Below, in pieces: positions 23,690 through 43,200 of a stretch of DNA of 64,000 bases (within the stretch, counting starts at the first letter, position 1; each line of letters starts with the position of its first letter). This DNA is from Marinitoga piezophila KA3. Its GTDB lineage: Bacteria > Thermotogota > Thermotogae > Petrotogales > Petrotogaceae. The position numbers and the translations under genes were made by a program. The DNA lies in assembly GCF_000255135.1 (NCBI RefSeq), contig NC_016751.1, positions 186,001 through 250,000 of the forward strand. Reading direction: 5' to 3'. The notes under the pieces were generated by a model. That model did no database searches. It worked only from the letters and a program-made list of their open reading frames with translations, and was not told where the DNA came from.

Positions 23690-25417
23690 TCATTGATTTA
23701 TTTTAGATCGATTTTCAAAATTAACAGCTATATCTCTTAATTTTTTATATAAATCATTTTTCTTTAATAAATTTTCATGAGCATCAAATGAGGTTATCTT
23801 ACTGTTTTCTATTACCGCTATTAAATCACAAATATCTATGATATTAAATTTATGAGAAATTATAATTGCTGATTTATCTTTTAAATGTTCATTTAATATA
23901 TCCAGCAGTTCTTTTTCATTAATTGCATCCAGGTTGGTAAGCGGTTCATCAAGGATTACATATTTTTTATTTGAATACATAATTCTGGCTAATTGAATTC
24001 TATGTTTTTCACCACCAGAAATAAATTCACCATTGCTCCCTAACTTTCTATTTTCTAAATGTTTTAATTTTAATTTTTCGACTATTTCTTCATATCTTTT
24101 TTTATTCCATTCTCGACCTAAAATTATATTTTCCTTTAGTGATTTATTAAATATTTTTACATTTTGTTCATAATAATCCAATTCGTTAAATATTTCTTCA
24201 TGAGTTAAATTCCTTATGTCTTTTCTATTTAAGTATATTTCTCCTTCATATTCTTTTTCAAATCCTAATAAGATGTTTATCAGTGTTGATTTTCCTTCTC
24301 CAGATAAACCAACTATTCCTATTATTTTATTTTTAGGGAATACAATATTTATATTTTTCAATATTTTTCTTCCATTTATTTTGTAGTTTACATTTTTTAA
24401 TGTGTAAAAATTATCTTCAGATAATAACTCCATATATTTTTTATCTTTTCCTTTGTTTTCTTTTGTTTTACTATAAAATTTATTTATTTCATTAATAGTT
24501 ACATCACCTTCTAAAAATGCTTTAGAGAAGTATCTAAAGAATTCAAATGGTTGTTTTATATAAGAATAATAAGTCAATAATACCCATATCTGACCTATTT
24601 CCATATTTCCTTTTAAAACCAGATATGCAGAATAAACTATAATAAACACTTTTGTAAATGCTTCCGGAATTTCAGAAAGCAAAATATTCAATTTCACTCT
24701 TATATATTCTGATTTTAAAAAATAATCTGTTGTAATTTTATTCTTTTCCTGATATTCTCTTGAAAGTTTTTTAACGAAATTTCCGGAAAGTACCTGTATG
24801 ATATTATTAAACGATTCATTTAGAAAGGAATTTATTTTCCTTACTTCATTCATTCCTTTTTCTATATATGGTCTTGTCAATTTATTCATGTTTTTTGAAA
24901 ACAAATAAACTGCCACACCATTTAATAAAAATACTATAAATATTATTTTGCTCCATAAAAATACTATTCCCATAATAAATATCATTCGTACTGTAAGTAA
25001 AATATTTTGGATAAACGAATAATCAAGTACTGCAAATGCGTTATTTAATTGTTCTCTAATTAATGTAGAATAATATGCTGCACCATTTCTGTTAAATTCT
25101 TTTATAGGTATACTAAAAGTTTTTTCAAATATATAGTTTCTCATTTCATCTGCTGCTTTGTATTTATTGTACAAATATATTTTATTTCCTATATAATCTA
25201 ATATTATATTTAATGCAAATAATCCTATTAAAAGATATATATTATTTATATTTAGCGTTTGATTTGACAGATTATCGATTATTTTACCTATAATAACGGG
25301 CGTATATATATTTATGATTATTGGAAAGGAAAGAATTAGACCTCCAATAAGAGTTAAAATCAATCTTTTCCTGCTAATACATCTATAAAAATTTATTATT
25401 TCTTTTATCTTTTTCAT
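23690..25417 (-). CDS. ABC exporter, fused membrane and ATPase domains
   Basis: A 575-residue half-transporter of the type IV exporter class. Residues 1-310 hold about six membrane helices. The ATPase part has GLSGEGKST (Walker A), ISGGEKHRIQLARIM (signature) and YVILDEPLTNLD (Walker B). No C39 peptidase domain. I start at the ATG at 25417, which has AAGGAG 8 bases upstream; a GTG at 25426 overlaps that site. It is divergent from a truncated copy of the helical-repeat gene, echoing the RiPP locus at 27.8-33.2 kb, so it may export peptides. This role is inferred from context. Confidence 0.88.
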   Translation of the reverse strand: MKKIKEIINFYRCISRKRLILTLIGGLILSFPIIINIYTPVIIGKIIDNLSNQTLNINNIYLLIGLFALNIILDYIGNKIYLYNKYKAADEMRNYIFEKTFSIPIKEFNRNGAAYYSTLIREQLNNAFAVLDYSFIQNILLTVRMIFIMGIVFLWSKIIFIVFLLNGVAVYLFSKNMNKLTRPYIEKGMNEVRKINSFLNESFNNIIQVLSGNFVKKLSREYQEKNKITTDYFLKSEYIRVKLNILLSEIPEAFTKVFIIVYSAYLVLKGNMEIGQIWVLLTYYSYIKQPFEFFRYFSKAFLEGDVTINEINKFYSKTKENKGKDKKYMELLSEDNFYTLKNVNYKINGRKILKNINIVFPKNKIIGIVGLSGEGKSTLINILLGFEKEYEGEIYLNRKDIRNLTHEEIFNELDYYEQNVKIFNKSLKENIILGREWNKKRYEEIVEKLKLKHLENRKLGSNGEFISGGEKHRIQLARIMYSNKKYVILDEPLTNLDAINEKELLDILNEHLKDKSAIIISHKFNIIDICDLIAVIENSKITSFDAHENLLKKNDLYKKLRDIAVNFENRSKINQ

Positions 25418-25549
25418 GTATTCCACTCCTTAATCTCTGTATTGTATTAATTAAGTTATACATTTTTTATTTTTCACAAAGTTTTTAGTGTATCTTTGGC
25501 GCTTTATAACACTTTTGACTATCAATTTATATCTCTAATATCTTTTTAT

Positions 25550-25852
25550 CAAGAAAAAAACTCATCACTGAGCTTTTTAAGAAAACAAAGAACTTTAAGG
25601 AATTTGTTTTTAATTATTTTAAGCTCAGTGATGAGGAAATGAAAGTTTTTGATGTGTTTTTAAGAAATTGTGTTCGATACGATATTAAATGGTCCATTAC
25701 TCCTTATCCAAAAAGCAAGATTCGCGATTTTGCAATTAAATATGGTCTTGGTCAAAAAAGAATTGCTTTAGGATATTACTCATTTGAAGATGATGAAAGG
25801 TTTTTGATTGATGGGATTATTGAGGGGTTTTTAATTAAAACCTCATACTGAT
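25550..25852 (+). pseudogene. Truncated copy (3' end) of the 31636-33231 helical-repeat gene
   Basis: These roughly 300 bases are nearly identical to the last 280 bases of the intact gene (32949-33231), in the same frame, encoding MKVFDVFLRNCVRYDIKWSI and what follows. Similarity begins abruptly at about 25550, a few bases before a 15-base inverted repeat also present in the intact gene. The last dozen residues differ (GFLIKTSY at the end). No start region is present, so it is a remnant rather than a gene. It was left by duplication and deletion or by recombination. Confidence 0.85.
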
Positions 25853-25896: not shown

Positions 25897-27597
25897 GGGA
25901 CTATCCAAAATACTGTGTAAATTAATTATAGTTGGTTATAAGAGATTATTTGTGTTTAGGAATAAATATGATGTTTATTCTTAATAATTCAAGAAAATTC
26001 AATACTTTGTGAAATCAAAATATTAGAGTTATAATTTTTAATGAGATATTAAAAATTGTTTGAATAATTTTTTTAATAATCTTTTTGTTTTTTAAGAAGC
26101 TAATTTTTGAGTTTTCACTCCTTTTGCACAATTTAGTGCAATCTTTTAAGAAATATTCACTTTTCAAAGTTTAATATATACAGAATTTTGAATTTTCTTT
26201 TTAATCGTTTGTTCTGTAAATAGGCACTCTATCATCTCCAAAATATATTCTTAACTCATTTAATATTTGTCCCCAATCCCTAATTCTTGTAGTCCATTTT
26301 TCCGTTATTCTCATTGCTGCAAAATATATTGCTTTTATCAATGAGTCATCTGTTGGAAATACGCTTTTGTTTTTGGTTATTTTTCTAAATTGTCTATGAA
26401 CATTTTCTATTGGATTGGTTGTGTATATCAGCCTTCTTATTGGTTCTGAATATTTAAAATAGGCTGATAATTTATCCCAATTATTTTTCCATATTTGTAC
26501 TGCCAAGGGGTGAGTTTCGCCCCATTTTTTTTCGAAATCTTCAAGTGCAGCTTCAGCAGCTTCAAGACTTGGAGCTTGATATATAGGTTTTAAATCCTTA
26601 ACAACAGCTTTTCTATGCTTATGAGGGACATATTTAAATGTATTTCTCAATTGATGGACAATACACATTTGAACTTCAGCATTAGGGAAAGCGGTATGGA
26701 TTGCATCAACAAAACCATTTAACCCATCAACAGAAGCGATTAAAATATCTTTAACACCTCTGGCTTTTAAATCATTCAAGACATTCATCCAGAATCTTGA
26801 GGATTCAGTTTTTTCTATGTATATACCAAGGATATCCTTATATCCATCAAGATTAATACCTATGACGTTATATATAGCCTTTCTTTTAACAACACCATCT
26901 TCTTTTACTGAATAAAATGAAGCGTCCAGATATACAATAGCATATATCTCTTCCAAAGGTCTATTTCTCCAATCATTTATTAAAGGCATTACAGAATTAG
27001 TAATCATACTGATTTTCTCTGGAGAAACTTCCACATCATATATTTCTTTAATATGGTCTCTAATATCCCTGACACTTAATCCTTTTGAATATAGCGATAA
27101 TACCAAATCCTCAATAACAGAAATATGTCTTTGTCTCTTTTAACAATTTGTGGTTCAAATTCTCCATTCCTATCCCTTGGAACTGTTAATTCCATCTCAC
27201 CATTTTTAGTTATTACAGTTTTTTTAGAATAACCATTTCGATAATTATCGTTATCCTCAGGTTTTCTGGAATACTTTTCATATCCAAGTTCATAATCCAT
27301 TTCTGCTTTCAACATTTCTTCAAGCATTATTTTTACAAGCTTTTTGCTTATATCCTCAACATCATTCCAATCCTTAATTCCATTTTCTTTTATATATTGT
27401 TTTATGAAATTCCTATCCACATTGCCAAGAATCTGTTCATTTTCCTCTTTTCTTTTTCTCGGCATTACTATCCCCCCATGTAACCTTTTTTTCAAAATCC
27501 CCTTTCTCTTTCACCACACTACTGGGCTTCCTTTTTTCACATATTCATTCTTTTTATTTTTCTATTTTTTTATTTACACACTTTTTATTATACTACC
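25897..27597 (-). mobile_element. IS256-family insertion sequence (ends tentative)
   Basis: The element carries an IS256-type transposase on the minus strand, split by a frameshift. The left end beginning GGGACTATCCAAAATACTG (25897) looks like an IS256 terminus, and its complement matches 19 of 27 positions ending at about 27597. No target duplication could be recognised, and the size is a little large for the family, so the borders are uncertain. The right side abuts a broken ABC ATPase gene; the left side abuts the truncated helical-repeat copy. Confidence 0.55.
26201..27465 (-). pseudogene. IS256-family transposase, frameshifted
   Basis: Two overlapping frames together make one mutator-type transposase. 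The first (27465 down to about 27076) starts MPRKRKEENEQ and covers the N-terminal domain (NYRNGYSKKTV, ELTVPRDR). The second (27106 to 26201) holds the DDE core: YLDASFY, SVDGLNGF and TTNPIENVHRQFR with the final Glu. The frame changes near 27120-27130, in a T run after the RDKDI motif; one extra T would restore it. IS256 elements are not known to use programmed frameshifting, so this copy is probably dead. Confidence 0.88.
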
Positions 27598-27795
27598 ATC
27601 ATTTATAATAATGTTTCCTGAAGTTGGTTTCAATAATTTTAAAATCTGTCTTATTAATGTTGTTTTTCCTGCTCCATTTGGACCAATTTATCCAATAATT
27701 TCATTTGTTTTTAAACTAAAATTTATATTATTATTTGCTCTTACTCCATTTGGATATGTTTTGCTTATTTTTTCTACTTTTAATAATTCTTCCAT
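27598..27795 (-). pseudogene. Truncated ABC transporter ATP-binding protein
   Basis: From an ATG at 27795 with a GGAGGT site, the minus strand encodes an ABC ATPase start (LLKVEKISKTYPNGVRANNN), then an in-frame TAA just before the Walker A region [13 protein letters not shown]. The reading is lost at about residue 65 near the IS end. The TAA replaces a codon that is usually Leu in this motif. It sits 26 bases after the exporter stop, so the RiPP operon once had a further ABC component, now broken twice (stop codon and truncation). Confidence 0.85.
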
Positions 27796-27821
27796 TTGTT
27801 ATACCTCCAGAGGATAATTGC

Positions 27822-29507
27822 TTAATAATATAAATTTTTATCAGTAAGCTTTTCTAATTCACCTTTTTCGATTTTTAGTTTCTCATCACATATCTCTAAT
27901 GTTGATTTCCTATGTGTTATTAAAACTATTATTTTTCCTTCTTTTTTTAACTTTTTTAAAATTTCATGTATTATTTCCTCATTTTTCGCATCCATTGCAG
28001 ATGTAAATTCATCAAGTAAGATAATCTGAGGTTCTGATATTAATGCTCTTGCTATTGCTATCATTTGCTTTTGACCACCAGATAAATTTATATTCTGCAC
28101 TTTTTCCTCTATTCCATTTTCAAATTTTGATATTATTTTTTCCAGATCAGTTATTTTCAAAATTTCCTCAAATTTCTCTTTTGAAATCTTTCTTCCCATC
28201 AATATATTTTCTTTAATACTACAATTTTTAAATAATACGGGTTCTTGTTCCACATATCCAATATGTTTTCTTAATATATTACTTTCTATTGTTTCTTTAT
28301 CATTTAATTTTATTTTTCCTTTTTTCGGTATATATAGACCTGTTATTACATTAAATAAAGTTGTCTTTCCTACTCCATTCTCTCCTGTTATACATATTAT
28401 TTTTCCTTTTTGTAGGTTTAAATTTACTGTTTCAAGTATTTTTTCATTATTAAAACCATATTCGATATTTTCCAGTTGAATTGAATTAATATTTTCTATT
28501 TTTTTCTCTTCAACCTTTTCTTCTTCATATTTTGTTATATCAACTATTCTCTTTATCCCACCCCATGAGCTTCTAAGTACCATATTTACCTTCATTAATA
28601 ATTGCAAAGGTGACATCAATGTTTGAATAAATGTCCAAAAAGCTATTAATGTTCCAAGAGTTATTTCATTTTTTATAATTAAATATCCTCCATATCCAAA
28701 TACTCCAACTGTTATTAATCCATTTATGGAATTACCTATTGCTCCGGATAATTTTATAAATTTTATAAACTTTTTCCCAACATTATAATGGTTATATAAT
28801 ATAGTATCCATCATTTCTTCTGTCCAACTATACACATTCATTACTTTTATTGTTTTTATATTATTTATAATATCTACTAATAAATTTGTAATTTCTCCAA
28901 ATTTTTCTCTTTCAATAATTGAGATATGTTCTGCTTTTTTATTTATGATCTTCAAAATTAAAAGGGATATTATTGTTAAAATTATTGGCACCATTGCTAG
29001 TTTCCAATTTAAATAAAACATCATTCCTATTATTCCTGCAATTTGTAATATCGATAATACAAAAACTGGAAACACCTGAGAAACTACAACTCCAACCATT
29101 TCAAGATCTGACATTAATTTTGATATTAACTCACCTGAATTAATTTTCATAAAAAATTCATATGGTAATTTTGTTAATTTTATTATAATTTCTTTTCTTA
29201 TATCACGTTTGGCTATTAATGCATTCATCTCAAATATTATTTCACCTAAATAACTTATCACAGAAGTTGCAATCAATACTCCTATCATTATAAATATATA
29301 TTTAAAGAGAATTTGAAAATTTTTTTCTGGTATTACAACATCTATCATATATTTAATCAGCATTGGAAAAACCAATGCTGATATTGCCATCAAACCAATA
29401 AATAAAATAGCTATTATTTGTCTTTTCCAATATCTTTTAAATATTTTGAATAAAAAATTATATATTTCTTTTTTTTCTAATTTGTTGTCATCTCTTCTTT
29501 TTTCCAT
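27822..29507 (-). CDS. ABC exporter in radical-SAM peptide operon
   Basis: A 561-residue half-exporter. Six membrane helices lie in residues about 30-310. The ATPase domain has GENGVGKTT (Walker A), NLSGGQKQMIAIARAL (signature) and IILLDEFTSAMD (Walker B with the catalytic Glu). No C39 leader peptidase is fused. Its ATG lies inside the end of the radical SAM gene (31-base overlap), so the two are co-translated, and it probably exports the modified peptide. A broken ABC ATPase gene follows. Confidence 0.92.
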   Translation of the reverse strand: MEKRRDDNKLEKKEIYNFLFKIFKRYWKRQIIAILFIGLMAISALVFPMLIKYMIDVVIPEKNFQILFKYIFIMIGVLIATSVISYLGEIIFEMNALIAKRDIRKEIIIKLTKLPYEFFMKINSGELISKLMSDLEMVGVVVSQVFPVFVLSILQIAGIIGMMFYLNWKLAMVPIILTIISLLILKIINKKAEHISIIEREKFGEITNLLVDIINNIKTIKVMNVYSWTEEMMDTILYNHYNVGKKFIKFIKLSGAIGNSINGLITVGVFGYGGYLIIKNEITLGTLIAFWTFIQTLMSPLQLLMKVNMVLRSSWGGIKRIVDITKYEEEKVEEKKIENINSIQLENIEYGFNNEKILETVNLNLQKGKIICITGENGVGKTTLFNVITGLYIPKKGKIKLNDKETIESNILRKHIGYVEQEPVLFKNCSIKENILMGRKISKEKFEEILKITDLEKIISKFENGIEEKVQNINLSGGQKQMIAIARALISEPQIILLDEFTSAMDAKNEEIIHEILKKLKKEGKIIVLITHRKSTLEICDEKLKIEKGELEKLTDKNLYY

Positions 29508-30865
29508 ATAAATAATTCACCTTCTTTCTTTTCTGAATAATTTAAACATCTTGGATCATGTTTGTTTATATCTCCATAATATTTATATGCAACTGCTCTG
29601 CAGCCACCATTACAGGTACTAAATTTATCACACTGAATACATTCTTTTAAATCTAAATTATATCTAAATCTATTCGCTTTTTCGGAAAACCATATATCTT
29701 TTATAGATTTTTCGAATATATTTCCATAACTGAATGCCGATTTATTTATTCCTTCTACTACATCACACAATATAACTTCCCCATCAGAACATATTTGCAT
29801 TGCAACTTTTGCACCGCCACAGGTTATATTTTTTGCAAATTTTTGTAATCCATATGTAATTTTGATACTTCCATTGTATATTTTTTCATATTTTTCTTTT
29901 AACGATATTGCATATTTTATTTCATTTTCTGTCAATGTTTGGGATAAAATTCCTCTTCCAATTGGAAGTATAGGAACTACTCTAATTTCTTCAACACCTA
30001 AAAAAGGTAATTTCTGAAATAAAATTTCTAAATCATTTAAGTTTTCCTTAGATAAAGTTATTCGCCCCCTGGTTTTTATATTAAACACATTGCACCAATA
30101 AAAAGCTTCTATAACTTTGTTAAAATCTTCTTTCTTTAAACCTGTTATTCTGGACCATTTTTCTGGTTCCCATGCATCTATACTTATTTGAATGTTTCTT
30201 AAACCCGCATCAACTAATTCTATAATTTTTTCTTTTGATAGAATTGTTCCTTTTGTTGAAACTTCATAATTTATTCTTTTTTTCTCCAAAAAATTAATAA
30301 TTTTAGCTAATCCAGAATGAGCTATAGGATCACCGCCTGATAAAGATACATATTCTACTTTTCCTAATTCTTCAGCTTCTTCAATAATTGAAATAACTTT
30401 TTCGGTTGGTAAATATTTTTTAGTATTATTTGAATTGAAATTACCAAAACAATAATTACAATTTAAAGGACAATAATCCGTTAAAGAAAAACCTATACTA
30501 TTAATTTTATGTGGAATAATAATAGGACTATCAATTTCAGGAATAAAAAGATATTCATTCTCAGTATATTTCGACAATCTTTTATGTAATTTTTGAGGTA
30601 AAAAATTTATTATATTAATTTTATTAAATTTGTCTATTAAAATATGTAAATCATTTTTTACTATATCAATCGAAACTTCATATAAATTTGATATCTTTTC
30701 ACTAATATCTTCAAAAGTTTTAGTTCCGTCACACAACGATAAAAATAAAGCTTCTGTTTGACTTAAAAATATCAGATTACTTCCACCCACACGCTTTAAA
30801 ATAGCGCCTTTATTAGTTTTTATTAAATTTACTTTTGGGGATAATAATAATATTTTATTTTTCAT
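29477..30865 (-). CDS. Radical SAM/SPASM peptide-modifying enzyme with PqqD-like N-terminus
   Basis: A 462-residue enzyme. Residues about 10-95 resemble a PqqD-type precursor-binding domain (FLSQTEALFLSLCDGTKTFE). The radical SAM cluster site is C132, C136 and C139 in DYCPLNCNYCFG. The C-terminal SPASM region has cysteines at 349, 359, 367, 409, 412, 418, 422 and 440, enough for two auxiliary Fe-S clusters. Enzymes of this layout form thioether or carbon-carbon links in ribosomal peptides. The start has AAGGAGG upstream. A 32-codon Cys-containing gene lies immediately upstream and is the likely substrate. Confidence 0.93.
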   Translation of the reverse strand: MKNKILLLSPKVNLIKTNKGAILKRVGGSNLIFLSQTEALFLSLCDGTKTFEDISEKISNLYEVSIDIVKNDLHILIDKFNKINIINFLPQKLHKRLSKYTENEYLFIPEIDSPIIIPHKINSIGFSLTDYCPLNCNYCFGNFNSNNTKKYLPTEKVISIIEEAEELGKVEYVSLSGGDPIAHSGLAKIINFLEKKRINYEVSTKGTILSKEKIIELVDAGLRNIQISIDAWEPEKWSRITGLKKEDFNKVIEAFYWCNVFNIKTRGRITLSKENLNDLEILFQKLPFLGVEEIRVVPILPIGRGILSQTLTENEIKYAISLKEKYEKIYNGSIKITYGLQKFAKNITCGGAKVAMQICSDGEVILCDVVEGINKSAFSYGNIFEKSIKDIWFSEKANRFRYNLDLKECIQCDKFSTCNGGCRAVAYKYYGDINKHDPRCLNYSEKKEGELFIWKKEEMTTN

Positions 30866-30897: not shown

Positions 30898-30930
30898 ACG
30901 TTTCCCATCTTGTTTTATGATGGGAAACGT
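30898..30930 (-). terminator. Hairpin between precursor gene and radical SAM gene
   Basis: Twelve-base perfect stem ACGTTTCCCATC (30898-30909 with 30919-30930) and a nine-base loop, followed on the minus strand by ATTTTAAAAATT. It is probably a leaky terminator or RNA-stabilising hairpin that keeps the precursor message in excess over the enzyme message, as is common in peptide operons. Confidence 0.65.
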
Positions 30931-30958: not shown

Positions 30959-31057
30959 TTACCATATAACTCCGCATACTACTATAGCAGATTGACAAAA
31001 AGAACATTCAACAACAGGTTCTATTTTACTATTAATAAAATAATAACCTTTTAGCAT
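30959..31057 (-). CDS. Candidate RiPP precursor peptide (32 aa)
   Basis: Minus-strand ATG at 31057 preceded by AGGAGG with good spacing (ribosome site at 31065-31070). It encodes 32 residues: a short leader starting MLKGYYFINSKIEP, and a core ECSFCQSAIVVCGVIW with Cys at 18, 21 and 28, then TAA. The size, the Cys-rich tail ending in Trp, and the location directly before a radical SAM/SPASM enzyme and an exporter fit a thioether (sactipeptide/ranthipeptide-like) precursor. The modification type is inferred. Very short genes like this are easily missed. Confidence 0.8.
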   Translation of the reverse strand: MLKGYYFINSKIEPVVECSFCQSAIVVCGVIW

Positions 31058-31094: not shown

Positions 31095-31123
31095 TTCTGG
31101 CGCCAGAACAAAACAGCCGGCTG
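31095..31123. promoter_or_regulatory. Two GC-rich palindromes upstream of the precursor gene
   Basis: TTCTGGCGCCAGAA (14-base palindrome, 31095-31108) and CAGCCGGCTG (10-base palindrome, 31114-31123) stand out in very AT-rich DNA. Their centres are 17 bases apart, about 40-65 bases before the precursor ATG. A further palindrome TATCTACGTAGATA lies at 31148-31161. They could be binding sites for a dimeric regulator or RNA processing signals. Confidence 0.5.
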
Positions 31124-31187
31124 AAAAAATTTAAATTTTTGATATAATATCTACGTAGATATAAAATAGAAAATAGATTCTATCTAA

Positions 31188-31319
31188 CTACTCAGAAAAT
31201 TCAATTTGGATTTGAGGATTGGTTGAATCTGTAGCATATTCATCATCATTATCTCCTGCAAATATTATTGTTGAAAATATTACTATTCCTATGATTATTA
31301 ATATAGTGATTTTTTTCAT
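31188..31319 (-). CDS. Small secreted peptide (43 aa), first gene of RiPP operon
   Basis: Minus-strand ATG at 31319 with GGAGGTG upstream. It encodes 43 residues: a typical signal peptide (MKKITILIIIGIVIFS, cleavage expected after FAG or nearby), then a short acidic tail rich in Asp, Asn, Thr and Ser that ends IQIEFSE. It has no Cys. It is transcribed from the promoter at 31339-31366 ahead of the precursor gene. It may be a signal peptide-type pheromone, an immunity factor, or a second substrate. Function not recognised. Confidence 0.7.
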   Translation of the reverse strand: MKKITILIIIGIVIFSTIIFAGDNDDEYATDSTNPQIQIEFSE

Positions 31320-31635: not shown

Positions 31636-33231
31636 TTGACAATGAAAGATATATCCTTTAAAATACTTATCGATATTATAAAATATGGATACTATTCAAC
31701 ACCAATTATTAATTATATTTATAAAAACAATACAGAAGACGATTTAAAATATTATATTCTATTATTAAAATCAAAATGGAAAAAAGATTTTAAATCTGCA
31801 ATATTTTATGCAAATAAGGTTATTGCAACAACAACAACAACAATATTAAGAGAACTTGCAAGATTTGAACTCATATCTCTTTATGTGAAAAATAAAGAAT
31901 TTGAACCTGCTAAAAAACAGTGTGAATGTTTAAGAAATAACTTTAAGAATATTTCTGAATATGCCAGGAATTTAATGATTCCTGGTTTAAAATTATTGAA
32001 TACAAAATATAATATCCTTAATAAGGATTTTAAAGCGTATTCTGATAATTATGAAGAAAATAATGTAGATAAGGCTATTTTAAAATATTCTCAGGCAAGA
32101 GAATACATTAAGAATGAAGAATATAATAAAGCATATGAATTATTTATAGATGGTTATTTTCTTGCAAAAGACTTTCCACATCCAACAATGATGTGTAATG
32201 GTTTAAATGGTGCTGCATGGTGGATAAGAAAAGTAGATAAAAAGAAAGCTTTAATTGCTGCTGATTTATTGGAGTATTATATCGGTTATTATTTTGAGGA
32301 TTTAAATTATATTTATAACTGGTTTGATACTATTTTTGAAGTTAGAAGAATTAACAAGGATATAAAAATTTTTGAATGTTGTGATGTTGTGAATGCGATT
32401 TATCATAATAATTCAGAAATTTCTATTGATTTAAAATTTATGAAATTTTTATTTTCTCCAGTTACTTATTATAAAATTGATAATTCATTATTTCAGTATA
32501 TGAAAAATGTTTTGAATTTGAATGATATAAAAAAATATATGACTATACAAAGTGTTACTTTAAATAAATTGATAAGAAAATATCATCTTATTTTTTCCAG
32601 TAACCAACCGTATGAAATAAATAATGAAATATTCAAAAGGCAAATAAAGAATTTATTTGAAAAAAATAAAGAAGTATTTTTAAAAAAGACAATTGATCTT
32701 TCTGTATTATTTTTAGCTACATATATATCCTATATAAATAAACCCAAATATTCAAAATTACCTCTATTGAAATTAATATTTAAAGATGATAAAAATAAGA
32801 TTATTAAATTCTTCTCTGCTAATTATGAGAAGATGTATTTTTTTAATGTTATGATGGAGAATTTTCATGAGAAAATTCTCATAGATAATTTACTGAATAA
32901 AAATAATAATCCTCAGACTGCCGAAGGCTGTTTATTCTATTTAGCAAGAAAAAAACTCATCACTGAGCTTTTTAAGAAACCAAAGAACTTTAAGGAGTTT
33001 GTTTTTAATTATTTTAAGCTCAGTGATGAGGAAATGAAAGTTTTTGATGTGTTTTTAAGAAATTGCGTTCGATACGATATTAAATGGTCCATTACTCCTT
33101 ATCCAAAAAGCAAGATTCGTGATTTTGCAATTAAATATGGTCTTGGTCAAAAAAGAATTGCTTTAGGTTATTACTCTTTTGAAGATGACGAAAGAATTTT
33201 GATTGATGAGATTATTGATAAATTCTTATAA
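31636..33231 (+). CDS. Helical-repeat protein divergent from RiPP operon
   Basis: A 531-residue soluble protein, mostly helical. Residues about 45-260 look like TPR-type repeats (EYNKAYELFIDGYFLAKDF, KKALIAADLLEYYIGYYF). The C-terminal 95 residues (KLSDEEMKVFDVFLRN, then SKIRDFAIKYGLGQKRIALG) are duplicated as a remnant at 25550-25852. No family is recognised; TPR proteins beside peptide operons often act as peptide-sensing regulators, which is only inference here. The start may be TTG at 31636 or ATG at 31642; GAGGTG lies at 31625-31630. Confidence 0.75.
   Translation: MTMKDISFKILIDIIKYGYYSTPIINYIYKNNTEDDLKYYILLLKSKWKKDFKSAIFYANKVIATTTTTILRELARFELISLYVKNKEFEPAKKQCECLRNNFKNISEYARNLMIPGLKLLNTKYNILNKDFKAYSDNYEENNVDKAILKYSQAREYIKNEEYNKAYELFIDGYFLAKDFPHPTMMCNGLNGAAWWIRKVDKKKALIAADLLEYYIGYYFEDLNYIYNWFDTIFEVRRINKDIKIFECCDVVNAIYHNNSEISIDLKFMKFLFSPVTYYKIDNSLFQYMKNVLNLNDIKKYMTIQSVTLNKLIRKYHLIFSSNQPYEINNEIFKRQIKNLFEKNKEVFLKKTIDLSVLFLATYISYINKPKYSKLPLLKLIFKDDKNKIIKFFSANYEKMYFFNVMMENFHEKILIDNLLNKNNNPQTAEGCLFYLARKKLITELFKKPKNFKEFVFNYFKLSDEEMKVFDVFLRNCVRYDIKWSITPYPKSKIRDFAIKYGLGQKRIALGYYSFEDDERILIDEIIDKFL
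32956..33030. repeat. 15-base inverted repeat inside coding sequence
   Basis: CTCATCACTGAGCTT (32956-32970) and its exact complement AAGCTCAGTGATGAG (33016-33030), 45 bases apart, inside the helical-repeat gene. The same pair is at 25561-25575 and 25621-25635 in the truncated copy, which begins about 11 bases before it. This suggests a recombination or processing site. Confidence 0.7.
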
Positions 33232-33327: not shown

Positions 33328-34698
33328 TTACTTGATATTTACAATTTTCCATCCCTTTTCTTTTGTAAATTCTATAAGTGTAATTTTTTCTTCTTTGGCC
33401 AATGAAATTAGATTTTCTTCAAATCCGCTTTTTGATACCAAAATAAAATTATCCACACTTATTTTAGATTTTTCTGTTTTGAATTTTAGGTTATAAAAAT
33501 CTTTTATATTCATCTTCCTATTTCTCCATTTTATTTCTGCAGCATATATTTTATTTTCAAAATCCTTTCCAAGCATATCTATTTCAATATTTTTATTCCA
33601 ATAATTACCTGCTTCAGCAAGATTAAATTTTTCTTTCAAAAATATTATGCTTTGTTTTTCAAACTCAAAAGAAACATATTGCGTCAAATCATTTTTTATA
33701 ATTTCAATAACATTGGAATAATCATTTAAATCAACACTATCTTTATGTGGGAAAATGTATCTATACCAGAAATTAAATAATTGATCATCGATTTTATATA
33801 TAAAGTTCTTTATTCTATGTGGATTTTTAGTAAAAGCAGGATATTCCCTTTTTACTATTTTTAAAAGCTGCAATGATTTTAAATAAGGCTGTATCCTTCT
33901 TGAATCGGTTTCACCAATAAATGAGGTTATTTCGTTAATTCTTGTTTTTCCACTGGCGACTGCTTCAAGAATTGATTGATAAATAGATGTTTCTCTTAAT
34001 TCCTGTGTTAAAATAAAATATGGCTCTTCTTTTAAGGGTGCCCCAAGAGTTAAAAATAAATTTTCTATGTTTTTTAATATATCTAATTGACTATTCCACA
34101 ATTGAAGATAATATGGAATTCCACCAATAATGGAATAAATTGTCATTAATGAATGATAATCATTATCTGGAATAAATAAATTAATATCTTTAAAGGCTAT
34201 GGGATTTAATTTTAGATTTCCTGTTTTTCTACCATATAATGGATTATTATAACTTAAAATACCTTCCATAAAACTTATGCTCGAACCACATAGGATTAAT
34301 TTCATTTTTGATGATTCAAACTCATCAATTAATAATTGTAATATAGAAAGTATTTCCTGATTTTTTTCAACTAAATATTGAAATTCATCAAGAACCATGA
34401 TTATACTTTCTCTATTTGAATATTCGAATAAAACCCTAAAAGCATCTTCCCAATTTTCAAAAGATATTTTTCCAAATTTCAAAAATTCTCCAACTTTATT
34501 GGAAAATGTTTTTAATTGCTCTTTTGGAGAAATTTTTCTAGCTGTATAATATAATGTGTTTTTATTTTTTGTAACTTCTTTTAATAAAAAACTCTTTCCT
34601 ATTCTTCGACGACCATATAATACAAATACCTCTTTTTTATTTGAATTTAATATCTTTTCAAAAAATTCTCTTTCTTCAAATCTGTCTATAAAAATAAT
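33328..34698 (-). CDS. Archaeal-type ATPase (DUF234-like), non-ATG start
   Basis: Read from its first ATG (34482) this protein lacks a P-loop, but the same open frame continues upstream and encodes YGRRRIGKS (Walker A) and IDRFEEREFFEKI, matching the neighbour at 35854 residue for residue in layout. No ATG, GTG or TTG exists in that stretch after the in-frame TGA at 34705. An ATT at 34695 or 34698, just after GAGGTG, is the only plausible start. The Walker B is IIMVLDEFQYL; the C-terminal part has a PD-(D/E)XK-like DUF234 domain (IEIDMLGKD, AAEIKWRN). The gene is about 455 residues, or it lost its start codon. Confidence 0.75.
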   Translation of the reverse strand: MIFIDRFEEREFFEKILNSNKKEVFVLYGRRRIGKSFLLKEVTKNKNTLYYTARKISPKEQLKTFSNKVGEFLKFGKISFENWEDAFRVLFEYSNRESIIMVLDEFQYLVEKNQEILSILQLLIDEFESSKMKLILCGSSISFMEGILSYNNPLYGRKTGNLKLNPIAFKDINLFIPDNDYHSLMTIYSIIGGIPYYLQLWNSQLDILKNIENLFLTLGAPLKEEPYFILTQELRETSIYQSILEAVASGKTRINEITSFIGETDSRRIQPYLKSLQLLKIVKREYPAFTKNPHRIKNFIYKIDDQLFNFWYRYIFPHKDSVDLNDYSNVIEIIKNDLTQYVSFEFEKQSIIFLKEKFNLAEAGNYWNKNIEIDMLGKDFENKIYAAEIKWRNRKMNIKDFYNLKFKTEKSKISVDNFILVSKSGFEENLISLAKEEKITLIEFTKEKGWKIVNIK

Positions 34699-35853: not shown

Positions 35854-37203
35854 ATGAAATTTTATAATAGAAAAAAGGAATTGGATTTTTTTGAAAAAAT
35901 TAAGAATTCTAAAGATAAAAAATTTATTGTTTTATATGGAAGAAGAAGAATTGGAAAGACTACATTAATTAAAAAAGCTTTTAAAAATGAATATAATTCA
36001 TTCTATTATTTTATTGAAGTAAAAAAGGAAGAAACACTGTTAAAAGAGTTAAGTTTAGCTTTTTCAAAAAGTATATATATGCGATGGTATGATTTATTTA
36101 CAGAGCTGTTTGAAAAATATGATTATGTTATTTTTGATGAATTTCAAAATTTCTATAAAATCAATCCGGAAATTTTATATGCTTTTCAACATGCCTGGGA
36201 TGATACTGAAAATAATATTAAATTAATTGTTTTAGGTTCATATGTTGGAATGATTAAAAAAATATTTATGGAAGAAAAGATGCCATTATTTGGGCGAAGT
36301 GATTATTTTTTGAAAATAAAAGATTTTTCATTAAAAGATTCTCTTATTATGCTTAAAGATTTTGGATACGATATTATTGAATCTCTGGAAATTTATGGGA
36401 TGGTAGGAGGAATTCCAAAATATTTATGGCTTTTTAAAGAAAAAAAAGATATAAAAAGTTTAATTTATGATATTTTTATTGATGATTTTTCTCCTTTACG
36501 AGAAGAAGCTAAGAATATTTTAATAAGTGAATTCGGTTCTGAACATAAGTCATATTTTTCAATTCTTGAAGCACTTGCTGGTGGAATGAAAACAACATCT
36601 GAAATAAAGGATATTTCTAAAATCCCACAAACAAGTCTGCCAAAATATTTAAATGAATTGAGCGATATATACGAAATCATTTCAAGAGAAAAATCGTTGT
36701 TTTCAAAGAAAAATAAAGATATTCGTTATTCTATAAAGGATAAGTTTTATAATTTCTTTTTTTATCATATTTATAGAAATTACTCTTTAATTGAATTTTT
36801 TCCTGAAAAGGCAATTGAAAAGATTTATAATGAATTTAATACATATATGGGTTTTCAATTTGAAGAGATATGTAAAACTTTTATCCAGGAAAATCCTCAA
36901 TTATTTGACTTTATACCTGAAAATATTGGAAAAGTATGGGGACGGGTTCCTTATAAGAAAAATGAGTCGTATGATATTGACATTGTAGCTTATGATGAGA
37001 ATAATATACTTTTCGGCGAATGTAAATGGAATAACAAAAAAGTTGATTTATCAATTTATGATAAATTAAAATTGAGGAGCGAATTTGTAAATTACGGAAA
37101 TAAAAATAAGAAATTTGTGATTTTTTCTAAAAGCGGATTTGCAGAAGATTTACTTAGTTTAAAAGATAAAAATTTATTTTTGCTTACCCCTGAAAATTTT
37201 TAA
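35854..37203 (+). CDS. Archaeal-type ATPase (DUF234-like)
   Basis: A 449-residue STAND/AAA-type ATPase. It opens NRKKELDFFEKI, then YGRRRIGKTTLIKKAF (Walker A), YVIFDEFQNF (Walker B), a helical/winged region (GGMKTTSEIKDISKIPQTSL), and a DUF234-like C-terminal nuclease-fold region (YDIDIVAYDENNILFGECKWNN, with the D...E.K residues of PD-(D/E)XK enzymes). These proteins are abundant in thermophiles and of uncertain role, possibly defence or mobile-element related. A consensus promoter with overlapping operators suggests strict control. Confidence 0.85.
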   Translation: MKFYNRKKELDFFEKIKNSKDKKFIVLYGRRRIGKTTLIKKAFKNEYNSFYYFIEVKKEETLLKELSLAFSKSIYMRWYDLFTELFEKYDYVIFDEFQNFYKINPEILYAFQHAWDDTENNIKLIVLGSYVGMIKKIFMEEKMPLFGRSDYFLKIKDFSLKDSLIMLKDFGYDIIESLEIYGMVGGIPKYLWLFKEKKDIKSLIYDIFIDDFSPLREEAKNILISEFGSEHKSYFSILEALAGGMKTTSEIKDISKIPQTSLPKYLNELSDIYEIISREKSLFSKKNKDIRYSIKDKFYNFFFYHIYRNYSLIEFFPEKAIEKIYNEFNTYMGFQFEEICKTFIQENPQLFDFIPENIGKVWGRVPYKKNESYDIDIVAYDENNILFGECKWNNKKVDLSIYDKLKLRSEFVNYGNKNKKFVIFSKSGFAEDLLSLKDKNLFLLTPENF

Positions 37204-37249: not shown

Positions 37250-37945
37250 TCAGTCTCTTTCCTCAAAATATTTTTTTAATGTAAGATATGTATCGTTTTT
37301 TGAAAGTTCAAATATAATTGCATGCGTTTTTTCAGTCATTTTTATGGCATTTATGCTTTCGCCTATATATTCAATAATTTTTTCTTCACTTAATATATTT
37401 ATTGTTTTTTTCAACATACCGATTTTATTATGAATACTGCTTCTTTCTTTTGTTAAATCACTTCTCGAAATTTCTTTCATTTCATCCCATATTTTTATAA
37501 GCCCTTCAAAATTCCAATTGTATTTTTGATTGATATTTTCTTTTGAAAGGTCTGTTTTTATTTTGTTTATATACTCTTCTGCTATTTCATATACTTTATC
37601 AACCTTCACGCTAATTTCCTGTAAGTCATTAAAGATATGCAATATACAAAATGTATAGAACATAAATAACATATATGAATTTTTTTCTAATCCGTATCGC
37701 TTATATATATCATCTTTAGTGTAGGCGTAAATACTTCTTACACTTCGTGGAATAATACATATATAATTTTCCGATGGAGATTCATATAATGAAAGGTTGG
37801 CTTTTTCAGCAAATATTTCAACAATTTTTTTTACTTCTTCATCATTGAAATATATATGAATTAATTCTCTATTTTCCTCTTCTGAAATCTCTGTTTTTTC
37901 TATTAATTTTGTTATTATCTGTATTGCATTCTCTATGGATTCCAT
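37250..37945 (-). CDS. Wadjet-like JetB subunit (MukE-like)
   Basis: A 231-residue protein, last gene of the Jet operon. Its length, winged-helix-like helical content (EENRELIHIYFNDEEVKKIV, then YTKDDIYKRYGL) and position next to the kleisin-like gene fit the small MukE/JetB subunit. Identity rests mainly on operon context. I start at ATG 37945, 5 bases after AAGGTGAG; a longer frame beginning at 37996 overlaps the preceding gene. Confidence 0.7.
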   Translation of the reverse strand: MESIENAIQIITKLIEKTEISEEENRELIHIYFNDEEVKKIVEIFAEKANLSLYESPSENYICIIPRSVRSIYAYTKDDIYKRYGLEKNSYMLFMFYTFCILHIFNDLQEISVKVDKVYEIAEEYINKIKTDLSKENINQKYNWNFEGLIKIWDEMKEISRSDLTKERSSIHNKIGMLKKTINILSEEKIIEYIGESINAIKMTEKTHAIIFELSKNDTYLTLKKYFEERD

Positions 37946-37949
37946 TTTC

Positions 37950-39320
37950 TCACCTTGATTTTTTAAATATGTATTCTGTAAATGTAAAATCTTCAATTGT
38001 TATTTCCTCTTCAAGGGGTATAATATGTATTTTTTTAAATTCAAATATTTCGTTGAAATCTTTTAAAGCTTTTTTAAATAACGGCTCTCTGGTAATATTT
38101 ATTGTCTTTAGCTGGTGCATATATAAGACTGTATCCAGGATAATTTTATTTGGTTTTTCTATAATCTGACTTAAATATATTTTATTTTCGACCTCTTTTA
38201 AAGCTTTTAATAATTTTTTTAGAAAAGAAATTTGCATTTCTTCTATCATTTTTTGTTCGTCTATATTTTCTACTTCATTTTCATCTAAAATTATACTGCT
38301 CTTTTGATTATGTTCATATGAATTATTAAAGAATACATTAAAGGCTATGCTTTTTTTTGGTTTTAATGATGAAAATATGTATATTGAAAAAGGATTTAAT
38401 TCTTTGTATAAAAATAATTTATCAAGGTATTTCTTTTCAATATTTATTTCATTTATTATATGTTCCCAGAAGTTCTTTTCACCAGCTCTCATGATTTCCG
38501 TTGTTATCTGTTGATACTTTGTAAGCAATCTGGAATGCATTTCCCTTGATTCTAATAATATTTTCTTTATATAATTCAGATTTTTTGCTTTTTCTTCTGA
38601 TAAAGTATCAAGATTGTATTCATCAATTAAAAAGAATATCCTGTCAAATATTTGTTTTTCATTTTGTAATTGATTTAGAGTAAAATCATACGTTTCCTCT
38701 ATTTTTTTAAATTCCACTCTCCATGGAGCTCTGCGGATTTCATATATTAATTTTTCAATATTTTCCAGCTCTGATGAAACCACTAATTTCAATTTTTCAG
38801 CTGAGTTTCTTGCATTTATAAATGTTCCTTTTCTAAATTGTTCTTGAAGAAATAATAATTCCATGGTTATCTGTAGCTCTTTATAAACTTCCAGTGTTTT
38901 AAGCATAAAATCCTTGCCTGACTTTGTTAAAGAAACCACCGTTTTTATTCCGCTAATATCCCTTTTGGGAAGTATATCAAGAAAGTTATATTTTATTTTT
39001 TTCTCTATTCCCTCTACATAATCATAATATTGAAAGGACAAACCTTTAAAACCATTTTCAAAGATTAGTCTTTCAAATATTTCCTTTAATAGATCCTCAG
39101 ATATTTTATTATCTATATTTTTCATATTTTCTATTATAGATTTAACTTCAACCTCTTTTTCACCTTCAAGTGTTTTATTAAATATATATATTAGCATGAG
39201 TATTCCAATTGAAAAGGAACGTGAAGGAGAAATTTTTTTAAAGGATGTGAGATTTCTATATAATGCTGCAAATTCTCCAATTGTAAAAACTCTTTCATGA
39301 AATGTTTTAAACACTTTCAC
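37950..39320 (-). CDS. Wadjet-like JetA subunit (MukF/kleisin-like)
   Basis: A 456-residue helical protein placed between JetD and JetB. It begins with a winged-helix-like segment and has a long coiled-coil centre (about 140-270) and a C-terminal domain, the layout of the kleisin-like JetA/MksB protein that links the SMC-like ATPase heads. Sequence motifs are weak, so the call depends on the operon. The start is GTG at 39320, or 39314 with better spacing from GGTGA. Confidence 0.72.
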   Translation of the reverse strand: MKVFKTFHERVFTIGEFAALYRNLTSFKKISPSRSFSIGILMLIYIFNKTLEGEKEVEVKSIIENMKNIDNKISEDLLKEIFERLIFENGFKGLSFQYYDYVEGIEKKIKYNFLDILPKRDISGIKTVVSLTKSGKDFMLKTLEVYKELQITMELLFLQEQFRKGTFINARNSAEKLKLVVSSELENIEKLIYEIRRAPWRVEFKKIEETYDFTLNQLQNEKQIFDRIFFLIDEYNLDTLSEEKAKNLNYIKKILLESREMHSRLLTKYQQITTEIMRAGEKNFWEHIINEINIEKKYLDKLFLYKELNPFSIYIFSSLKPKKSIAFNVFFNNSYEHNQKSSIILDENEVENIDEQKMIEEMQISFLKKLLKALKEVENKIYLSQIIEKPNKIILDTVLYMHQLKTINITREPLFKKALKDFNEIFEFKKIHIIPLEEEITIEDFTFTEYIFKKSR

Positions 39321-40248
39321 TCACCAGCTTTTTTAATAACTGATAATTAATTGCTTCCTGAGGAATATTCTTCCCTTCTCTTATTATATTTAATAACTCT
39401 TTTATAAGGTTATTTTCACTTTTTATACTGAACTTTCTTTCCTTGCTTTTTTTAGATTTTTGATTAAGCATAGCTTTATATCCCTTTTCCCAGGGGATAA
39501 TATGATGTTTATTATATCTTTCTATTAATTTGTTTAGAATAAATATACCATCATAATCTATATCTCCCCAATAATAAAAAATGGTATTAACAGGCACATA
39601 TTCATATATAAATTCAAAACTGCGTAAAATCTTTTTTCCTTCGCCAAATATAACTGCATCAAAAGGATTTATTCCTTCTTGGTGTAAAAGATAAAAATTA
39701 TAAAATGGTGTTTGATTTTCTGATATTAAAACCTTTTTTATATTGTTATTAAATGCAAATATATAAAATGGTTCTCTTGAATCAAAGGTATATAAATCTT
39801 CTTTTATGTTTATTTTTATGTTTCTTAATACATTTAGTACTTCTCTATCCCTTTCAAATGCCTTTTCATTATCAAATATTTCATAGGCCCTTTCACGCAT
39901 AGCAACATACTTTTTATCACCGTTTTTCAAGTAATTATCTATCTTCAAAATAATTTCTCTATCTTTTTGATACTCATTTATATGGTTTAAATAATAATCT
40001 ATATTTATTTTAGGATGTAATAAAAAGAGTTCGTCTTTTTTATTATTTATATTTATACGATATTTGGCCGGTAATGAGGGATATCTTCCATTTTCTTTTT
40101 TATTTTTTACAGGTATTAGAATTCCTTTATTCATTAAATTTGTTATTTTTTTATATATTTCTTCATATTCATTATTTGAAATTTTTTCCAGTTCTTCATA
40201 GGTGATATATTTCTTTTTATATGATTCAAGATATTTTTTTAAATTCAT
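39307..40248 (-). CDS. Wadjet-like JetD nuclease subunit (toprim/DUF2220-like)
   Basis: A 313-residue protein. The C-terminal half carries a toprim-type fold: VLISENQTPF (acidic Glu near 177) and FYYWGDIDYDGIFILNKL (DxD near 228), matching the JetD relative of topoisomerase VI subunit A. In Wadjet systems JetD is the DNA-cutting subunit acting on small circular DNA. The N-terminal 120 residues are a helical arm. I start at ATG 40248, just downstream of GGTGAAAAT; its start region follows the JetC stop closely. Confidence 0.8.
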   Translation of the reverse strand: MNLKKYLESYKKKYITYEELEKISNNEYEEIYKKITNLMNKGILIPVKNKKENGRYPSLPAKYRININNKKDELFLLHPKINIDYYLNHINEYQKDREIILKIDNYLKNGDKKYVAMRERAYEIFDNEKAFERDREVLNVLRNIKINIKEDLYTFDSREPFYIFAFNNNIKKVLISENQTPFYNFYLLHQEGINPFDAVIFGEGKKILRSFEFIYEYVPVNTIFYYWGDIDYDGIFILNKLIERYNKHHIIPWEKGYKAMLNQKSKKSKERKFSIKSENNLIKELLNIIREGKNIPQEAINYQLLKKLVSESV

Positions 40249-40252
40249 ATTT

Positions 40253-43200
40253 TCACCATTCCACATAATACCCTTTTTCAAATGTTTCTTTATGTTCTTT
40301 TCTGGCTATTTTTAATATGTTATTAGAAACAACCTTATTTTTTACAAGGACAAGGCTATAATTATAATTAAAATATCTGGATATATTCATGTCATTATGT
40401 GCCGTAAAGGTGATGAATTGTGCATTATTCTTTTTCATGAGTATCATTAATGGTGAAAGTATATGTTCTGAACTTGCCTTTCCAAATGGATTATCTGATA
40501 TAACAACCATATTTCCGCCAATATTATTTTTTAATACTTTTACAATTGATATGTATATTGAAAAAAATGCAAAGAACTTTTCTCCACCAGACCAGGCTGA
40601 TACATTTTCAAGAAAATACCATCGTGGATTTTCAAATGTTTTATCCGGTTTTAATATTTTAATCTTTATCGGTCCATTATTAACCACTTTTAAGAGATTA
40701 AAAATTGAAAAACTAATATTTATATACTTCGTTATCTCCTCTTCGCTTTTAAACTTTTCGTTGTTTTTATCTGTGATATGCTTTATTATTTCATCTATAT
40801 ACTCTGAAATTTTTGAATATGCTTCTTCTTCGTTATATTTATTAAATATTATTTTTATTGTTTCAATTTTTCTATCTTCAACATATATTTCTGAATATTT
40901 TGAGAGTTTTTTTAATGCTGACATGTATATTGAAACTTCACTCAGAATATTTTTTATCATCTCATTTTTAAATCGCATGGCTTTTTCTTTATAACTTTTT
41001 AATGTGTTAATTTTCTTTTCTATTAAATCTTTTACTGTTATATAGAGATTTTTAGCGGTTTCATAGTTAAATTGAAAATCATTTCTTTCATACAAAAATC
41101 CCATATTTACTATTAAATCAAATCCTTCTTCTGAAATTAATAATTTTATTTTCTGCCAACCATCTGATATCTCTTCCCTTTTCTTCTTTTCGGTATTTTC
41201 CAGATCTTTTAATTCCTGAAAAACTGCTATAAAATTATTATGCAAATGTTCTTTTTGAAATACTGATAAATTTGTTATTATCTGTTTTCCAGGGAATTCA
41301 TATGGTTGAAGTAATTTTTCTTCATCATTTATATTCATTTCCAGACGCTCTATATTTTTTTCAAGCGCGTTTATTTGATTTTCAATTACTGATAAATTTT
41401 CTTTTTTGTCGGATAATTCTTTTTCAAATTTTTCTTTTAAAATAATATATTTTTCTTCAGGAATTTCTTCTACTTCAAAATTGGTTATATCCTTTTTCAA
41501 CAATTTTATTTCGGCTTCAATTTTTCCAATTTCTCTATTGAATTCACCTATTTCATTTCTATAACGCCTAATATTACTTCGATAATAACTTTCATCTTTT
41601 AATTCTGCATTTTTAAGATTTTCAAGTGTTTCCAATTCATATTTATAGCGTTTTATTTTCTGTAATTTATTATTGAGCTTTTTCTGTAATTTTTCTTTCC
41701 TTTTATATAATTCTTTTGTATCAATTTGCTGTATAAGATATTCATAGCGTGAAGACAATTCATAAATATCTTCGTTTTCATATTTCCATATTCCCTTTTC
41801 ATATATATTTAAATATGATTTATATTCAGACTTTTTTAAAAATGTTTCATCTTTTTCTGCACTGATGTATCTCTTTTCTTCTTTAAGTTTTTCCAGCTCT
41901 TTGTTTAATTCCAATAATTTGAGATCTATAGATTCTTTTTCTCTATATAATTTTTTATTGAATTCATTTATCTGGAATATATCTATTCCAAATCGGTCAT
42001 TTAATGTGTTTCGAATATCTCTAATTTTCATCTGTTTTTCCAGTAACTGATTTAACTTATTTGATATCTCTTTTATTTCCGTTTCTAATCTGGATTTTTC
42101 ATTGATAAGTTCTGCTTTTTCAGAATTTAATTTTGAAATCTTTAATAGGATATTATCTTTATCTTTTTCTAAAACCTTTATTCTTTCTTGAAATTCATTA
42201 TCTTTTTCAATATCATTTTTTCCATATAGATTTTCAAATTTAATTACAATATCCTGATATTCTTTTATACGATTGTATTCTTCGGATATACTTTCCAGCT
42301 TTTTTTCTAATTTTTCTTTATCTGTTTTATATCTCTCATATAATTCTTCAATAGAAATTTCACCAGAAACAAATTTATGATAATCATTCATAATTATCTG
42401 AATTCCAGAATTATAAATACTATCATTTATTTCATAATTTGCAAGATTTTCCCTATTTTGTATAAAAATTATGTCATTTGAAAATCTATATTTTCTAAGT
42501 TTTTCAGATAATTTTTTTATATCCTTTTTTTCCACTATAATAGAATTTAACAATATTGGATTTTTGTGTTCTATTCCATCTCTTAATAATTTATATCCTG
42601 TTGTATAATCATAAAAATTTTTCTCCTGAAGATAATTATCAAGTTTTTCTATAGATTCCGGTATTGGAATATAATTATCTCTTTTAATTCTATCCATTAA
42701 AATATCTATAGCTGTTATTTTTTTTGAAATTGATTCTTTTTCAATAAGCAACTTTTTTGAATTTTCTAAAATCTCTATATATAACACTTTAAAAGTTTTT
42801 ACTCCATACAGTTTTTTTAGAGCATCAATATCATTATATAACTCCTTAAACTTTTCATATTCATCTTTTAATTCTTTTATTTTTTCGACTAAGTTTTCTT
42901 TTTTACTTGTATTACCTATTAAATCATTATCAATGGTTTTTATATTGATGTTTATTTCACTAATCTTTTCCTGAATAACATTTACTTTATTCTTTATCTC
43001 TTCTATTTGAATATCAAGTGTTTTTATCTTTTTAATTTCAATTATTTTATTTATCTCGGATAGCTTTCTTTCAAGGTATTTTATATCATTAACAAGTGTT
43101 TTGATTCTATTATTTTTTTCAGATATGATTTTTATAACTTTATCTCGTCTAACTTCAAGTTTATATATATTTGATTCCAGATCCCTTAATTTTTTATTTA

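Follow-up and report, generated by a model that had tools for sequence, protein, structure and literature searches.

A candidate peptide-sensing module beside varied radical SAM peptide operons in Thermotogota

Peptide pheromone receptors that adjoin RiPP operons are documented in Firmicutes, and in the open papers we found no report of such a receptor beside a RiPP operon in Thermotogota. Within this phylum, the TM1315-TM1319 locus of Thermotoga maritima, with its peptide TM1316, is reportedly the subject of a study by Frock et al. from 2013 (AEM 79:6637). Going by the title of Frock et al. 2013, as cited in PMC13157175, transcription of the TM1316 locus is triggered in stationary phase. The RaS-RiPPs streptide, tryglysin and streptosactin of streptococci are controlled by Rgg/SHP pairs (PMC13361665, PMC8092268), and RRNPPA receptors with their propeptides (Rap/Phr, NprR, PlcR/PapR and AimR) have been described in Firmicutes (PMC9765709).

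Here we describe a locus of Marinitoga piezophila KA3 in which a RiPP operon lies next to a divergent gene for a helical-repeat protein (REG), a gene for a small secreted peptide (SP) and three palindromes (Table 1); the window, that is, the whole stretch of DNA that was analysed, is 64,000 nucleotides long. Like the Rgg/SHP loci, it sets a helical-repeat putative regulator and a small exported peptide beside radical SAM RiPP operons that vary between loci, but REG belongs to another family without an N-terminal HTH, SP is a Sec-type peptide of ~43 aa in place of the short SHP, and the phylum is a different one. The locus also resembles RRNPPA systems, whose hallmark of an adjacent secreted propeptide with a conserved C terminus is present at REG in the form of SP: a putative TPR-like protein is encoded beside a propeptide of ~40 aa with a signal peptide. 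It differs from them in that REG has no sequence match to RRNPPA proteins in Pfam or PDB, lacks the N-terminal HTH found in all of them but Rap, and carries an extra conserved C-terminal domain. By analogy, REG may resemble RRNPPA receptors in how it works; we do not count it as a member of that family. We consider it probable, on the same analogy, that REG, SP and the palindromes form a Rap/Phr- or Rgg/SHP-like peptide-sensing switch that controls RiPP operons. We found no earlier description of a module of this type in the open literature.

Table 1. Features of the locus, with positions in the window
Feature	Position	Strand	Remarks
RiPP precursor, 32 aa	30959..31057	-	MLKGYYFINSKIEPVVECSFCQSAIVVCGVIW, then stop; invariant core C-x6-C-x3-W
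Hairpin with 12-bp stem, precursor/radical SAM intergenic	30899..30930	-	MFE compared with shuffles
Radical SAM/SPASM maturase, PqqD-like N terminus	29477..30865	-	Pfam; PqqE closest in NCBIfam
ABC exporter (membrane + ATPase)	27822..29507	-	Pfam; L075 and L076 have a homologue in the equivalent position
Second ABC ATPase, 5' fragment with in-frame stop	27520..27797	-	full-length homologue in L085
Second REG remnant, 283-bp direct repeat of REG 3' end	25541..25823	+	95.8% identical
Second ABC exporter	23690..25426	-	assignment by inference
Palindrome 3	31095..31108	.	TTCTGGCGCCAGAA; beside palindrome 2 elsewhere
Palindrome 2	31114..31123	.	CAGCCGGCTG; genome-wide copies
Palindrome 1	31148..31161	.	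TATCTACGTAGATA; extended 21-mer
SP, 43-aa secreted peptide	31188..31319	-	MKKITILIIIGIVIFSTIIFAGDNDDEYATDSTNPQIQIEFSE; candidate pheromone precursor
REG, 531-aa helical-repeat (TPR-like) protein	31636..33231	+	candidate peptide-responsive regulator

Results

A sequence-only reading of the window had proposed a Cys-rich 32-codon frame behind a well-spaced AGGAGG as the precursor of a radical SAM RiPP, followed by its maturase and an exporter. Both the frame and the AGGAGG, 7 nt upstream of the ATG, were confirmed in the sequence, and related genomes encode homologues of the peptide. Searches of 103 Thermotogota genomes with a peptide profile recovered 12 copies in 8 genomes (E 1e-19 to 4e-8), with genomes G006 and G088 contributing members that this search added. 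Most copies sit immediately 5' of an orthologous radical SAM/SPASM gene, frequently as a tandem pair upstream of the orthologues of both the enzyme and the ABC exporter. The condition that would have refuted the sequence-only reading did not arise: at each examined locus whose orthologous radical SAM gene is intact, the frame stood upstream of that gene. Pooled substitutions per site were more frequent at synonymous (pS 0.77) than at non-synonymous positions (pN 0.32), and the precursor is under purifying selection. Because of the 12 profile copies, the adjacency to the enzyme and this excess of pS over pN, the frame is not a product of chance, and we identify it as the precursor of a radical SAM RiPP.

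Upstream of the radical SAM orthologues we read the precursors MLKGYYLVNKSQDPILACAFCQNAIVVCGIVW and MLKGYYSISKTPIIASECYFCQGAIVVCAITW in G005, MLKGFYSISKEPIIASECYFCQGAIVVCAVTW and MLKGFYSVNKSNTPLLLCAFCQSAIVVCGVVW in G003, and MLSGYYEISTDLVNLSLCSFCESAIVICGIIW and MLLGYYMLSSDFPEIVSCSFCRDAIVICGITW in G029 and G024. G016 encodes a two-Cys form, MLKGYYRIKKGREAEIQGVCKAAIVICGVAW, and the more distant G088 peptide, MLRGYYSISKKSVSLNKWCETTIFVCGVFW, likewise has two Cys. The end C-x6-C-x3-W-stop is common to all members. Of the three-Cys core with a terminal Trp that had been read from the window peptide, the Trp stands and the count of three Cys does not: the first Cys is dispensable, two members having two only. 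The spacing C-x6-C-x3-W is invariant, and precursors of this form are a new family. Matches of the profile at L029-L031 were weak and chance-like in appearance and were set aside.

The radical SAM/SPASM identity of the enzyme encoded directly after the precursor was borne out by Pfam (Radical_SAM, 9.5e-25; SPASM, 8.5e-10). Its N terminus matched PqqD with E 8.6e-5 and 23.2 bits, 0.2 under the cut-off of 23.4, and by this likeness is a candidate RiPP recognition element. The best NCBIfam model was PqqE (1e-37), so that the enzyme resembles PqqE and PqqD-fused radical SAM-SPASM maturases in its closest model and its N-terminal segment, but it scored far under the PqqE cut-off (129.9 bits versus 381) and has a short Cys/Trp precursor rather than PqqA. 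The window enzyme reached no curated cut-off for sactipeptide, ranthipeptide or other named RiPP maturases, and a C-C link or a Cys-Trp crosslink is therefore as open as a thioether. Orthologues are 79% identical in G005, 72% in G003 and 51% in G029 and G024. Stops or frame breaks interrupt the maturase gene in G003, G006, G016 and G088 (L003, L007, L008 and L073) beside an intact precursor, which indicates that some copies are decaying or misassembled. Outside Thermotogota we found no close homologue, only four matches of 21-24% identity, in a contig scan that also missed known Thermotogota loci.

A hairpin separates precursor and maturase, with an MFE of -21.1 in the window versus a shuffled mean of -8.1 (0/200 shuffles). 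Hairpins at this place occur in 5 of 6 loci, with unrelated sequences in L076, L077, L078 and L073; at L075 none is clear. The hairpin is likely an attenuator or processing site, which would suit a high precursor-to-enzyme ratio. After the maturase, the predicted ABC exporter was found (Table 1). Pfam detected no C39 protease domain in it, so leader removal would fall to something else or not take place at all. An IS256 insertion damages the downstream end of the operon and cuts off the second ABC ATPase gene; the IS256-family transposase (26201-27495) lies after the start of that gene and is split into two overlapping frames. The second ABC exporter is probably left from a decayed second module.

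REG, SP and palindromes, which the sequence-only reading had not picked out, recur across Thermotogota ahead of differing Cys-peptide/radical SAM/ABC operons, the TM1316 locus included, and the REG family was found in 54 of 103 genomes, with 18 matches in the window genome. We compared the flanks of 34 REG genes that had enough of them with those of 194 other genes: a radical SAM motif lay within 3.5 kb of 20 REG genes and 4 others (5e-16), and a short divergent signal-peptide ORF adjoined 22 REG genes and 1 other (Fisher 5e-21), P values that are too small because the loci were picked by REG and the modules are paralogous rather than independent samples. The cargos vary: many encode small peptides (8-Cys, 11-Cys, subtilosin-like and others), and some consist of ABC genes only. 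Ten radical SAM neighbours that we tested match models of RiPP maturases (PapB, Clo7bot, TIGR04463, CcpM and others), all below equivalog cut-offs. Subtilosin-like precursors at the REG modules L042 and L090 read MPTPEMVTSDITCWSCLACAFCGLSFTVISALSGLSTAS and MKIVNDAKNESLKCFIVCSGACVVICSLDTITPLLDAMGVASYANAENVSL. At L066 and L067 (T. maritima) and at L088 and L091 (G003), REG-SP-cargo units follow one another in the same orientation ~6-10 kb apart and resemble a cassette array. In G005, G003, G029, G024 and G016 the precursor has neither REG nor SP beside it; the module is therefore not obligatory for the C-x6-C-x3-W RiPP.

In genome G093, which we take to be T. maritima MSB8, the TM1316 locus runs from a divergent REG-family gene through a secreted ORF and the 31-aa peptide MQKMPKPVVPNDYLNPGKGCGGAGLVCGWCG to a radical SAM gene and ABC genes. 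The likeness to TM1316 that had been proposed for the window holds for the layout, now including REG, the secreted small ORF and a palindrome, but not for the peptide and its enzyme: MQKMPKPVVPNDYLNPGKGCGGAGLVCGWCG is unrelated to the window peptide, the radical SAM enzymes align over 58 residues at 17% identity, and the tail of the secreted peptide differs. We rejected homology of the two peptides and of their radical SAM enzymes.

The AlphaFold2 model of the window REG is all-helical (pLDDT 91). Foldseek placed TPR proteins first, with RapI, NprR, RapF and RapH within the top 50, all hits at E > 0.001 and those to Rap and NprR weak (E 0.04-0.09). Some relatives match TPR_12 (1.3e-9); the window REG itself has no Pfam match. 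The window REG gave no match in a defence library, and a REG search outside Thermotogota, which covered plasmid and phage records, found none there. In some relatives a Cro/C1 HTH scores above the Pfam cut-off (4.5e-7) and lies in the middle of the protein, not at the N terminus. It is intact in several other genera, broken in the window REG and lost in the aligned Marinitoga copies of ~480 aa, which leaves direct DNA binding via the HTH unsupported here. The most conserved part is the C-terminal domain, in which R436, F453, Y457, R477, Y478 and R518 are invariant; profile and fold searches of this domain against the PDB gave no match, the isolated model reaching a pLDDT of 75 only. REG may bind DNA by this domain, or it may work in the manner of Rap proteins, through a partner. 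The latter variant, in which REG would bind SP and act by protein contact on another transcription factor, the HTH being a relic, has in our view a real chance of being right that falls somewhat short of even: the Marinitoga copies kept their flanks and the C-terminal domain while the HTH was lost or broken, but several other genera retain an intact HTH, and the partner factor is still hypothetical.

On the far side of REG, two ATPases (33328-34482 and 35854-37203) that match the PADLOC candidate PDC-S27 lie between the RiPP module and a complete Wadjet type III locus (37250-44443; JetB3, JetA3, JetD3 and JetC3, PADLOC).

All three palindromes are perfect and are located between SP and the cargo. 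The extended 21-mer of palindrome 1 (up to 3 mismatches) and CAGCCGGCTG each occur seven times in the 2.24-Mb genome, never away from REG modules or their remnants. Across seven genomes of the genus we counted 20 CAGCCGGCTG sites. Fifteen belong to REG modules or remnants, and where REG is intact they lie ~490-530 bp from its start. Of the other five, three are followed by Cys-rich peptides but lack an intact REG, one stands ahead of a secreted protein, and the last is an isolated remnant with both palindromes. Cys-rich RiPP-like precursors after CAGCCGGCTG without an intact REG (L122, L126, L130 and L115) begin MEWIMKPIDEGDELDCFCLLVICY, MEFLNHPNNEYQTDFCDKDQNC and MKIVNDEKNESLKCFVVCSGTC. Palindrome 3 stands beside palindrome 2 also in L085/L111, L122 and L127. 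At the same place, the TM1316 locus has a perfect 20-bp palindrome, TCCGAACACCGGTGTTCGGA (0/100 shuffles), and the G088 locus a perfect one that, at 10 bp, is no longer than chance would produce. Between SP and the precursor we detected no Rfam element, and this leader folded no better than shuffles. A sigma-70 scan did no better than chance (10 matches against an expectation of 7.9), and we draw nothing from it.

Mean identity between modules drops from 0.72 in the 85 nt after SP to 0.41 in the next 100 nt, around palindrome 2. Since homology ends near CAGCCGGCTG, the palindromes could mark recombination boundaries. They might even be recombination sites or duplication footprints without a role in transcription, with palindrome 2 and the 3' ends of REG as the points of exchange. 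The tandem arrays of T. maritima, L088 and L091 would agree with this, as would the 283-bp repeat of the REG 3' end, whose two copies (the remnant in Table 1 and 32936-33218) bracket the RiPP module. We regard it as unlikely, however, given that the sites at L122, L126 and L130 precede Cys-rich peptides with no intact REG nearby, that palindrome 3 recurs next to palindrome 2, and that the perfect palindromes of TM1316 and G088 are unrelated and yet sit at the same place. Other parts of the window genome hold several further fragments of REG 3' ends.

After its start, SP is best conserved in its tail, T-x-S-x-N-P-Q-I-Q-x-E, within the C-terminal stretch TDSxNPQIQxEFSE (for example, STNPQIQIEFSE). 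Comparison of synonymous with non-synonymous changes places SP under purifying selection, and its tails are almost identical ahead of unrelated cargos. Outside the genus, matches to the Marinitoga SP profile lay divergently beside REG in 34 of 48 short frames versus 4 of 29 long frames. That REG and SP adjoin the RiPP operon without controlling it, for example as an immunity or envelope peptide (SP) with its partner protein (REG), is distinctly improbable to us: five genomes do hold the core cassette without them, and an immunity role would likewise keep SP beside many bacteriocin-like operons, but near-identical tails before unrelated cargos are easier to reconcile with a common signal than with immunity specific to each cargo, an HTH scores above the Pfam cut-off in some REG relatives, and the palindromes are in the upstream region of the cargo.

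Discussion

In the peptide-sensing switch that we favour, the RiPP operon would be the cargo of a reusable REG/SP/palindrome regulatory module. SP would leave the cell via Sec and be cleaved after its signal sequence, and its C-terminal part would accumulate outside and then be re-imported. The groove of the REG helical repeats would bind the re-imported peptide, and at high density REG, directly or via a partner, would act from the palindromic sites to shift cargo transcription. As for the product, the maturase would hold the leader by its PqqD-like N terminus and modify the core, C-x6-C-x3-W; export of the modified peptide would fall to the ABC transporter.

We also lean towards a broader reading, with less assurance than we have in the switch itself: that Thermotogota possess a peptide quorum-sensing family of their own, formed by SP and by REG with its unmatched C-terminal domain, which controls rotating radical SAM RiPP operons via the palindromes, many parallel modules of one genome using near-identical signals. 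If the switch is real, the combination of REG, SP and palindromes becomes a search handle, one that has already led to many RiPP precursors not studied before, the C-x6-C-x3-W family among them, and heat-stable crosslinked peptides together with a new sensor domain would be useful and testable. The proposed switch agrees with the induction in stationary phase that is reported for the TM1316 locus and, if true, would explain it; a hyperthermophilic diderm phylum would then have its own peptide-sensing switch.
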